A stretch of 64,000 nucleotides of DNA from Paenibacillus pinihumi DSM 23905 = JCM 16419 (lineage in GTDB: Bacteria > Bacillota > Bacilli > Paenibacillales > Paenibacillaceae), in NCBI RefSeq assembly GCF_000422505.1, contig NZ_AULX01000019.1, positions 124,001-188,000 of the forward strand, written 5' to 3'. The position numbers were made by a program, and so were the translations under genes. Each line of letters starts with the position of its first letter. Position 1 is the first letter of the stretch. The notes beneath the pieces were generated by a model, which was given only the letters and a program-made list of their open reading frames with translations, was not told the DNA's origin and did not search any database. Positions 16,642-55,170 of the stretch are shown here, piece after piece.

Positions 16642-17889
16642 ATGATGAATACGGCTTTTTTGTTTCCGGGGCAGGGTTCACAATATGTTGGTATGGGAAG
16701 AAAACTGTATGACCAATTCGCTGCAGCGAGGCATATGTTCGAAGAAGCAAATGATACCTTAGGATTCGATCTTGCCACACTTTGCTTTGAGGGAAGCCAC
16801 TTGGAGCTTATGCAAACAATGAATACACAACCTGCGATATTGGCTGTAAGTGTCATTGCCTTTGAAATGGGGAGGCAAGAACTGGGGTGGGAGCCCTGTT
16901 TGATGGCTGGACACAGTCTTGGCGAGTATTCGGCGCTTGTGTGTAGCGGAGTGTTTTCTTTTCGTGACGGGCTCCGTATTGTCAGAAAACGTGGAATGTT
17001 GATGCAAGACGCGGTTTCCGCGGGTCTTGGGGCTATGGCAGCTGTGACTCATGTCCCAAGAGATCAGCTGGAGCAATGGTGCCGCTTGTCCGCAACAGAA
17101 ACTGCACAGGTTGTTATCGCCTGTTATAATTCGCTGAATCAGCACGTCATTGCGGGTCATCAAGAGGCAGTCGGTGTTGTAGCGGAGCTCATCCAGAGAA
17201 AAATTCCACAAGCCGGTGTGAAATATTTAAACGTCAGCGCTCCTTTCCACAGCCCTCTGATGCAAGCAGCAGCAGACAAGCTTGCAGCTGATTTGGGGGA
17301 GCATGAAATTCGAGAGGGCCATTGCCTGGTCATATCCAACGTAACTGCCCGGCCGTATGGGTTGCAAGAACTGGCTTCTCTTCTTTACCGTCAGATGACT
17401 CATCCGGTTCGCTGGCTGGACACAATGGAATTCCTGTTCCGTCAAGGAGTCAGCAGGACCGTGGAAGTTGGGCCTCGTCAGGTGCTGACTCAACTAATGA
17501 ACGATACTTATTCTTCTATACAAACCTACCACTTTGATAATCCTCAAGAACTAGAGCATTTACACTCCATCTTTGCTTCAGGACATTATAGCCGTGAAAC
17601 CATTGCCGTCAGCATTCATGAGGCTCTAATGGCAGCCGCCATTGCCCGGAACCGAAATGAGGACATGACGGAGTATAACAATGGCGTCATCCTGCCAATT
17701 CAACAAATCAGAGAGCTAATAGAACAAATTCGCCAAGATCGAAATTTGGATATGACTTCAACGCTGTATCGGATAAGGGATCTGCTGCAGATCGTGCTGA
17801 CCGCCAAACAATTGTCATCGGATGAACAGATGAAGATCGTCCGCAAATTACCGACAAGCAAGAACGTCGTAACTTTGATTAAGGGATAA
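16642..17889 (+). CDS. fenF: Free-standing malonyl-CoA transacylase, FenF/ItuD type
   Basis: The 415-residue enzyme loads malonyl from malonyl-CoA onto the carrier protein of the following hybrid synthetase, which has no AT domain of its own. The motifs are complete: [13 protein letters not shown] at the start, GHSLGEYS with catalytic Ser92, and SAPFHSPLM with catalytic His203. About 110 extra C-terminal residues form helices ([29 protein letters not shown]), as in FenF of iturin-type clusters. I choose ATG 16642 because GAGG lies 7 bp upstream; the frame is open 48 bp further 5'. It is 20 bp upstream of the first synthetase. This gene order is that of iturin, bacillomycin and mycosubtilin operons. 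Confidence 0.93.
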
Positions 17890-17909
17890 TCATTTTAGGA
17901 GGGGAGAAT

Positions 17910-53868: not shown

Positions 53869-53910
53869 CACTCTATTCAAATGATAAAGACAAAGGAGGA
53901 TTAATTAAAG

Positions 53911-55170
53911 ATGAATACGTTCGAAGTTTTGGAGTCCAATGTCAGGTCTTATTGCAGAAGTTTTCCGGTTGTATTCGATAAAGCTAAGGGAGATCAGTTG
54001 TATGCGGATACCGGGGAAGCTTATATCGATTTTTTTGCGGGGGCGGGAGCCCTTAACTACGGACATAACAATAAGTTTATGAAGTCCAGAATTCTGGAAT
54101 ACGTATCCCAGGACCGGATAATGCATGGACTCGACATGTATACGAAGGCAAAAGAAGAATTTATTCTTTCATTCTCAGAGCATATCCTCAAACCCCAAGC
54201 TTTGGATTATAAACTGCAATTTTGCGGACCGACGGGTACTAATGCGGTGGAAGCCGCGTTGAAACTGGCCCGAAAGGTTAAGGGCAGAAGCGGAATTTTT
54301 GCTTTCATGGGCGGATTCCATGGGATGTCGCTGGGAAGTCTGTCGATCACAAGCAACATATCGATGCGCGAAAGTGCCGGGATACCGCTCAATAATGTGA
54401 CTTTTATTCCCTATGGGCAGTCGTTTGGAGGATTGGACACAATCCGTTACATGGAGCAAATCCTCTCCGATACGCATTCCGGGATCGAGAAGCCTGCAGC
54501 GATTATATTGGAAACCGTTCAGGCGGAAGGCGGAATAAACGTGGCTGAAACTGGATGGCTGCAAAACTTGCGCCAGCTTTGTGATGATCACGATATTTTA
54601 ATGATTATCGACGATATTCAGGTCGGCTGCGGCAGAACCGGTCCATTTTTCTCATTTGAGCGTGCGGGGATTGTGCCGGATATCGTGATATTATCCAAAT
54701 CGATTAGCGGGTATGGCTTGCCGATGTCTTTATTGCTGATCAAACCGGAGTTGGATATTTGGAATCCTGGAGAGCACAATGGGACATTTAGGGGCAATCA
54801 ATTAGCTTTTGTCACGGCTAAGGCGGCACTGGAATTCAGAACAGCGGAGAGTCTTGGCGATCAGGTACGGGAGAAAGAGGCTTTTATTAAACACTACCTG
54901 GAAAGTGAGATTTGGCCGCTAGATCCCGAACTGCGAATTCGGGGGATTGGGTTGATTTGGGGAATTGATGTCGCTCATCTGGGACAGGAGGCCGCTAAAG
55001 AGATCGTCTCGAATTGTTTCAGGAACGGGCTCATTCTGGAAAGAGCCGGCCGCAACGATACAGTCATTAAGATCATGCCTCCTTTGACGATCAGCATAGA
55101 CAATTTGAAGTCAGGCTGCGATACGATTAAAGAAAGCATTCGTCAAGTTTGCCCTACGTATATTTTTTGA
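53911..55170 (+). CDS. ectB: Diaminobutyrate-2-oxoglutarate aminotransferase, EctB family
   Basis: The 419-residue class III PLP aminotransferase begins with VLESNVRSYCRSFPVVF, the typical EctB N-terminus. It contains FCGPTGTNAVEAALKLAR, FHGMSLGSLS, IDDIQVGCGRTG and the PLP lysine Lys263 in ILSKSISGYGLPM. EctB converts aspartate semialdehyde and glutamate to L-2,4-diaminobutyrate. Neither ectA nor ectC is nearby, so ectoine is not the product. It is 42 bp behind the exporter with AAAGGAGG upstream (spacing 12) and before the operon terminator. I infer that it supplies Dab to modules 3 and 4. Confidence 0.9.
   Translation: MNTFEVLESNVRSYCRSFPVVFDKAKGDQLYADTGEAYIDFFAGAGALNYGHNNKFMKSRILEYVSQDRIMHGLDMYTKAKEEFILSFSEHILKPQALDYKLQFCGPTGTNAVEAALKLARKVKGRSGIFAFMGGFHGMSLGSLSITSNISMRESAGIPLNNVTFIPYGQSFGGLDTIRYMEQILSDTHSGIEKPAAIILETVQAEGGINVAETGWLQNLRQLCDDHDILMIIDDIQVGCGRTGPFFSFERAGIVPDIVILSKSISGYGLPMSLLLIKPELDIWNPGEHNGTFRGNQLAFVTAKAALEFRTAESLGDQVREKEAFIKHYLESEIWPLDPELRIRGIGLIWGIDVAHLGQEAAKEIVSNCFRNGLILERAGRNDTVIKIMPPLTISIDNLKSGCDTIKESIRQVCPTYIF

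Follow-up and report, generated by a model that had tools for sequence, protein, structure and literature searches.

How does a peptide synthetase line that begins like those of the iturins, but ends without their thioesterase, release its product, and what is that product? The question is posed by an operon (16642..55170, plus strand) in a 64,000-nucleotide stretch of Paenibacillus pinihumi DSM 23905 (the window), part of contig C10 of a 6.76 Mb Paenibacillus-type genome. It encodes a FenF-like transferase, three synthetases of 2+2+3 modules, a major facilitator superfamily (MFS) exporter and an EctB-type transaminase, all functions here being read from genes, domains and specificity codes, with product, ring and activity as predictions. 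We consider it probable that the operon directs synthesis of a cationic cyclic iturin-type lipoheptapeptide, cyclo[3-amino fatty acyl-Gly-D-Asp-Dab-D-Dab-Val-Leu-(Ala or Val)] (Dab, 2,4-diaminobutyrate), released by a terminal condensation-like domain for which we coin the name TERM. With more reserve, and at about even confidence, we propose that TERM is to bacteria what the CT domain is to fungi, a condensation-type macrolactamase that is widespread at the ends of Paenibacillaceae synthetases and whose close form is mostly linked to beta-amino loaders, and that the window's cationic iturin-type lipopeptide uses it.

Domain organization of the operon

The synthetases occupy 17910-33665, 33734-41506 and 41525-52585 as open frames of 5251, 2590 and 3686 codons. 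Mapping with profiles made from the window's own domains, with Pfam in agreement, gave the orders AL-ACP-KS-ACP-AMT-C-[dA]-T-C-A-T-C-A-T-E, C-A-T-C-A-T-E and C-A-T-C-A-T-C-A-T-TERM, respectively (AL, acyl-AMP ligase; ACP, acyl carrier protein; KS, ketosynthase; AMT, aminotransferase; C, condensation; A, adenylation; [dA], A remnant; T, thiolation; E, epimerization).

16642..17889, plus strand: FenF-like malonyl transferase, acting in trans (PF00698, 139 bits; fabD model, 295 bits against a cut-off of 260.9)
17910..23864, plus strand: loader of synthetase 1, AL(FAAL)-ACP-KS-ACP-AMT, from profile and Pfam domain mapping
23922..25937, plus strand: A-less unit of C, remnant A C-terminal subdomain and T, with no A core
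26004..29048, plus strand: module 1, C-A-T, code DILQMGMVW, predicted Gly
29115..33614, plus strand: module 2, C-A-T-E, code DLTKVGHIG, predicted Asp
33755..36847, plus strand: module 3 (synthetase 2), C with a start of the D-accepting type, A with code DIWEMTADD, predicted Dab, and T
36923..41458, plus strand: module 4, C-A-T-E, code DIWEMTADD, predicted Dab
41558..44701, plus strand: module 5 (synthetase 3), C with a start of the D-accepting type, A with code DAFWIGGTF, predicted Val, and T
44771..47824, plus strand: module 6, C-A-T, code DAWFIGNIV, predicted Leu
47888..50929, plus strand: module 7, C-A-T, code DVFWIGGSF, predicted Val or Ala
51242..52582, plus strand: TERM, terminal condensation-like release domain, with SHTIFDYMS replacing HHxxxDG (partial PF00668 match, 61 bits)
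53911..55170, plus strand: EctB-type diaminobutyrate-2-oxoglutarate transaminase, putative Dab supply (TIGR02407, 593 bits; equivalog cut-off 552.2)

The FenF-type transferase, the AL-ACP-KS-ACP-AMT loader and the seven amino-acid modules with seven A domains are those expected of the iturin family. HHxxxDG is kept in all eight ordinary C domains, one E domain follows module 2 and another module 4, and synthetases 2 and 3 open with C domains that start with QEGILFH and QEGMLFH. A prediction made earlier from the letters of the window (the original prediction) had placed the loader, modules, epimerases and D-accepting starts exactly so; its description of the operon stands but omitted the A-less C-T unit, TERM, the absence of a thioesterase, the identities of the MFS and EctB genes and the conserved transporter genes upstream.

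The terminal domain and peptide release

No NCBIfam family scored above its cut-off over TERM. In profile comparisons (hhalign) it matched C domains at 99.5% probability over 364 columns and E domains at 98.1% over 397 columns, a similarity over most of the domain as expected for the condensation superfamily, with the full HHxxxDG motif missing. Alignment of 13 TERM sequences, the window's included, showed two motif residues, the second His and the Asp, to be invariant, and blocks FDYMS, GR, VGE-ID-IP and NYxG to be conserved. No PF00975 thioesterase was found on the window's contig and none follows TERM.

Among 15 genomes reached via named loci, TERM scored at least 225 bits in all 13 of Paenibacillus type and at most 31 bits in the two Bacillus genomes. 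In further stretches 18 of 19 TERM places come straight after a T domain and have at most 72 residues behind them, the nineteenth being in a separate open frame; our own thioesterase profile was made from one MycC sequence, and distant members may escape it. We then scanned 394 genomes of the family for TERM (E 1e-15) and the AMT loader (E 1e-110), scoring up to four candidates per genome. TERM, distant members included, occurs in 76 of these genomes (at least 98 places) and the loader in 61 (at least 74 places). Among scored places, 42 of 74 loaders are followed by a same-strand TERM no more than 50 kb away, and for 22 of 29 strong TERM places (at least 200 bits) a beta-amino loader is found no more than 50 kb upstream.

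The nature of the release is suggested by paenilipoheptin. A line in Paenibacillus sp. FJAT-26967 reads Ser-E, DVCETGTIE-E, Trp-E, DVFWLGGTF-E, Phe, Tyr, Glu, T, TERM, which is the published paenilipoheptin order of residues and epimerases, with the Ser module joined to the loader; in the published system that module is a one-module enzyme (PMC11959601). A contig of P. terrae (genome G159, identified by identical coordinates as the genome of loader locus L047) carries the partial line Phe-Tyr-Glu-T-TERM. Paenilipoheptin A is cyclic, its C-terminal Glu forming an amide with the beta-amino acid's amino group (PMC11959586). Because lines of this kind end in TERM and paenilipoheptin A is a ring, a TERM-ended line with such a loader most likely gives a macrolactam, and macrolactam release by TERM is our preferred reading.

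Several observations weigh against it. Of HHxxxDG, the SHxxFDYMS-type motif has lost the first His and the Gly, and the single-sequence fold of TERM, made without an alignment, is of too low confidence to use (pLDDT 34.8). Six PF00975 matches elsewhere in the genome could act in trans. Counted over all scored TERM places, only 42 of 98 have a loader within 50 kb upstream, and distant TERM-like domains terminate lines of other kinds. Seven of the 29 strong places also lack a loader within 50 kb: those in G179 and G159 (loader on other contigs), in G160, G162 and G163 (separate loader gene about 290 kb or more away), and two in G161. Finally, the TERM endings that we compare come from the paenilipoheptin-like lines of FJAT-26967 and P. 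terrae, which are distinct from the phn cluster of strain E681. The degenerate motif with its partial Pfam match, the TERM-like ends of other lines and the thioesterases elsewhere would also fit the same peptide with a TERM that is inactive, cleaves the chain by hydrolysis or passes it to a free amine, giving a linear or amidated product or a ring closed by an enzyme encoded elsewhere. We regard this as rather unlikely, given the invariant His and Asp in all 13 aligned sequences and the TERM-ended lines of paenilipoheptin order, whole or partial, in two genomes, paenilipoheptin A being a macrolactam.

As examples of other TERM-like ends, loci L179 (G102) and L184 (G292) are hybrid synthetases with frames of about 5600 codons, two KS domains and a distant TERM-like end, and no beta-amino loader was found in either fetched stretch.

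Residues of the predicted peptide

Re-derived by alignment, the codes of A1 to A7 are DILQMGMVWK, DLTKVGHIGK, DIWEMTADDK (twice), DAFWIGGTFK, DAWFIGNIVK and DVFWIGGSFK, and the eight positions of the original prediction agree with them in all seven domains. Bacillus spizizenii, read in this way as a control, gave Asn-Tyr-Asn-Gln-Pro-Ser-Asn, the order of mycosubtilin. By code tables, DILQMGMV, DLTKVGHI and DAWFIGNI denote Gly, Asp and Leu, and DVFWIGGSF (A7) would usually be read as Val. The A5 code, DAFWIGGTF, is that of pelgipeptin PlpE A6, predicted to select Val (PMC3479019, Table 1). The assignments of Gly, D-Asp, Val at position 5 and Leu, all of which had been predicted, are thus supported by code.

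Residues 3 and 4 are most likely Dab, because DIWEMTAD matches a PvdL code at seven of eight positions and the last gene of the operon passes the EctB cut-off; the original prediction had read the code correctly and left both positions unassigned. An A domain of PvdL (Protein Data Bank), aligned to A3 with 79.6 bits over the pocket region, reads DIWELTAD; a literature search for that code gave no match, and fragments of it retrieved unrelated papers only. PvdL makes Glu-D-Tyr-Dab (PMC12195549), so Dab is its sole basic residue, and from these products the matched chain appears to be its Dab module. The gene plpA, homologous to the window's EctB-type gene, has been proposed as the Dab supplier for pelgipeptin (PMC3479019). 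EctB adjoins 10 of 13 clusters with a DIWE code (the window, 11 others and G238), and follows the MFS gene in seven of the eight clusters with the same peptide reading. Two clusters without a Dab- or ornithine-type code showed no EctB (G020 on both strands, G126 on the plus strand of the fetched stretch), nor did the plus strand at the FJAT-26967 paenilipoheptin-like cluster, for which the published structure gives Lys as the basic residue. Clusters with DVGE or DVGD codes were mixed: an EctB-like gene was found in G112 and G413 (plus strand), and none in the fetched stretches of G125, G161, G292 (plus strand) and G019.

Other findings speak against Dab. Among solved structures, the A3 pocket region is matched best by the synthetase 9n1u, not by PvdL (100.6 versus 79.6 bits), and there the printed alignment shows DVWEMNAD. 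PlpD A1, the Paenibacillus Dab domain that has been tested, carries the code DVGEISAIDK (PMC3479019), so DIWE would be a second Dab solution in this family. We met no experimentally tested Gram-positive DIWE domain in the literature, and three of the 13 DIWE clusters (JJ-100, P. arenosi and P. assamensis) have no adjoining EctB.

EctB-type enzymes also make the precursor of ectoine, for which the TIGR02407 model is named. The residues might then be another small basic amino acid, such as 2,3-diaminopropionate or ornithine, with EctB serving ectoine synthesis or another pathway; codes for diaminopropionate and Dab can be 80% alike (PMC12283262), and the 9n1u match and the three clusters lacking EctB nearby point the same way. 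We judge this distinctly unlikely, as no other ectoine enzyme was matched among the flanking open reading frames scanned, and the PvdL code match and the recurrent position of EctB after the MFS gene argue for Dab.

Residue 7, which had been called Val-like, is uncertain between Ala and Val, its code having been read correctly. Module 4 of the FJAT-26967 paenilipoheptin-like cluster has the similar code DVFWLGGTF, and at position 4 of paenilipoheptin A Val was predicted and Ala shown (PMC11959601), so residue 7 may be Ala; here the Ala belongs to the published producer of paenilipoheptin A and the code to FJAT-26967, another strain. Identity between A domains failed to decide the matter: window A7 shares 52.5% identity with the FJAT-26967 domain and 59.7% with A5 (Val) of the window. 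For the predicted ring, the calculated [M+H]+ values with C14 to C17 acyl chains are 881.5819, 895.5975, 909.6132 and 923.6288 if residue 7 is Ala, and 909.6132, 923.6288, 937.6445 and 951.6601 if it is Val. The Ala form with a C16 chain and the Val form with C14 have equal mass, and a linear acid would be 18.01 heavier.

The loader, the A-less unit and the proposed pathway

The AMT domain is 84-95% identical to those of six named loci with the same peptide reading and 66-68% identical to those of Bacillus loci. Behind it, the A-less unit comprises a C domain (23922-25241), an A remnant (25527-25757, 29 bits) and a T domain (25731-25937). A same-frame C-T-C order after AMT, with the remnant detectable or not, was found in 55 of 80 AMT-fetched loci, including all 11 from Bacillus, and the unit is thus an old part of such loaders. 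We considered the missing A core as a recent defect and rejected this, since the Bacillus iturin-type loci have the same order; the unit probably just passes the beta-amino acyl chain on to module 1. A silent or broken cluster without any product, as the unit lacking an A core might hint, is very improbable in view of the commonness of that unit in Bacillus iturin-type loci, the long open frames and the intact C-domain motifs.

By the same domain order as in mycosubtilin, for which the MycA and FenF steps have been described (PMC3039948), AL would activate a fatty acid, the FenF-like enzyme would place malonate on the second ACP, KS would add two carbons and AMT would form the beta-amine. The A-less unit would hand the chain on, the seven modules would add their residues, with Dab provided by the EctB-type enzyme, and on TERM, rather than a thioesterase, the beta-amino group would attack the last thioester, closing the ring and freeing the chain. 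The MFS and ABC/FtsX transporters described below would serve in product export or self-protection. Gene and domain order, codes, conservation and the lack of a PF00975 match on the contig are observed; the residue identities, ring closure, relay and transporter roles of this scheme are what we infer.

Other arrangements of the loader were seen. Stand-alone AL-T-KS-ACP-AMT loader genes of 2035-2048 codons occur at L046 and L047 (P. terrae) and in G160, G162 and G163. No synthetase was found after the L046 loader on its strand (56 kb, partly N) or in the 21 kb of L047, and we rejected these two loaders as the start of a phn cluster, the phn-like end in the genome of L047 being on another contig. 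In G163 a line starting ACP-C-[dA]-T and ending in TERM lies far from the loader, possibly a pathway split in trans. Second loaders with frames of 3965-3996 codons are present in G257 (C125), G200 (C7), G238 (C1:2214414) and G153 (C1:1945316), genomes that hold a Dab-type cluster or a close TERM; the frames are about the size of B. spizizenii MycA (3991 codons), and possibly mark classical iturin clusters. In L072 (Fontibacillus panacisegetis) and L058 (P. daejeonensis) a beta-amino loader is followed by C-C-A with a DIWE-type code first, which suggests Dab as the first residue.

Distribution and related clusters

The same peptide reading, with small code variants, was obtained for the window and seven other genomes: P. 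woosongensis, P. bouchesdurhonensis, P. glacialis, Paenibacillus sp. JJ-100, P. faecis, a Paenibacillus metagenome-assembled genome and G238. The cluster is therefore not unique to this strain; of the length and order that looked new in the original prediction, the order of residues does appear new, whereas the length is shared with iturins and paenilipoheptins, which are also heptapeptides. Related clusters of the same 2+2+3 layout read, with residue names that we take from their codes, Gly-D-Ser-Ser-D-Dab-Gly-D-Ile-Val in Chengkuizengella marina, Gly-D-Asp-Dab-D-Dab-Xaa-Val-Val in P. arenosi and P. assamensis, and Thr-D-Asp-Dab-D-Dab-Xaa-Phe-Val/Ala in FJAT-26967 and P. lutrae. Searches of the open-licence literature by compound type, Dab and the relatives' species found no description of this peptide among the papers listed, and a genome-mining paper credits P. 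glacialis DSM 22343 with five or more unknown clusters (PMC11210098). Near-identity comparison of window positions 20000-44000 with 72,556 plasmid records gave no match. The window's own genome has 69 condensation-domain matches, many on contigs C30-C40, which are probably broken synthetase repeats.

The iturin-type lipopeptides would thus gain a positively charged branch, which we predict in eight genomes, with the collection strains P. glacialis DSM 22343 and P. faecis DSM 23593 among the predicted producers.

Transporters and the limits of the cluster

Transporter genes lie on both sides of the synthetases, as follows.

11376..11708, plus strand: PadR-type regulator (PF03551, 68.4 bits), opening the upstream transporter module and overlapping the start of the HAAS gene
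11701-12243, plus strand: HAAS membrane protein (PF22564, 54.3 bits)
12250-13011, plus strand: DUF4097 'toastrack' protein (PF13349, 53.9 bits)
13032-13823, plus strand: ABC transporter ATPase (PF00005)
13827-16226, plus strand: FtsX-type permease (PF02687)
52582..53868, plus strand: MFS exporter (PF07690, 114 bits), with a homologue in 12 of 14 related clusters

The HAAS and DUF4097 proteins are a probable sensor or regulatory pair, and the genes from PadR to FtsX look like a regulated module for export or self-protection. In the fetched stretches of the 14 related clusters, homologues were found for HAAS in one, DUF4097 in five, the ATPase in five and FtsX in 12, many flanks being too short to reach the positions of the first three; the stretches from Fontibacillus and B. 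spizizenii have no FtsX homologue. In G238 the HAAS, DUF4097, ABC and FtsX genes stand downstream of EctB instead of upstream of the operon. Both the ABC/FtsX module and the MFS exporter probably belong to the cluster. After the operon (55542-57468) lie genes for a flavin adenine dinucleotide (FAD) monooxygenase, whose best NCBIfam match, to the Tet(X) model, scores 193 bits (cut-off 750), and a TetR-type regulator; no homologues of these or of a downstream M13 peptidase gene were found in the relatives' fetched flanks, which are short.

Comparison with known systems

With the iturin family (mycosubtilin, iturin A and the bacillomycins) the window shares the FenF-like enzyme in trans, the AL-ACP-KS-ACP-AMT loader, the C-T-C junction and seven residues; the original prediction was right that the peptide differs. 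Iturins have Asn-Tyr-Asn-Gln-Pro-Ser-Asn and variants, from 1+4+2 modules, whereas the window has predicted Gly-Asp-Dab-Dab-Val-Leu-(Ala/Val) from 2+2+3 modules, with E domains after modules 2 and 4 only, and its peptide would be cationic. The iturin start Asn(Asp)-D-Tyr-D-Asn and pattern L-D-D-L-L-D-L (PMC3039948) differ from the window's Gly-D-Asp-Dab-D-Dab, and the third synthetase of B. spizizenii ends in a thioesterase where that of the window ends in TERM. A lactam ring through the beta-amine, another mark of the iturins, is predicted for the window's product.

Paenilipoheptins A and B, with which a comparison had been advised, are also beta-amino fatty acid heptapeptides, and the comparison reveals the same type of loader and of terminal domain with different residues. 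The FJAT-26967 paenilipoheptin-like cluster, read whole, has loader, A-less C-T unit and TERM ending in common with the window's, and the partial one of P. terrae has the TERM ending. The paenilipoheptin synthetases have 1+1+5 modules (PMC11959601), and the order Ser-Lys/Dab-Trp-Ala/Val-Phe/Leu-Tyr-Glu/Dab is not that of the window. Since paenilipoheptin is a ring and similar lines end in TERM, these clusters point to how Paenibacillus lipopeptide lines without a thioesterase may close their rings. Pelgipeptin has Dab residues and an EctB-type gene in its cluster, but differs in its beta-hydroxy fatty acid introduced via a starter C domain, its Dab code (DVGEISAIDK) and its terminal thioesterase (PMC3479019). 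Fungal CT domains are likewise condensation-type domains that follow the last T, with no thioesterase, and release by cyclization (PMC7253712); the window's TERM is bacterial, and the likeness is one of architecture and described role, not of sequence. The cluster is thus predicted to be a Dab-containing beta-amino lipoheptapeptide line, unlike the iturins in its residues, epimerase positions, distribution of modules and mode of release.

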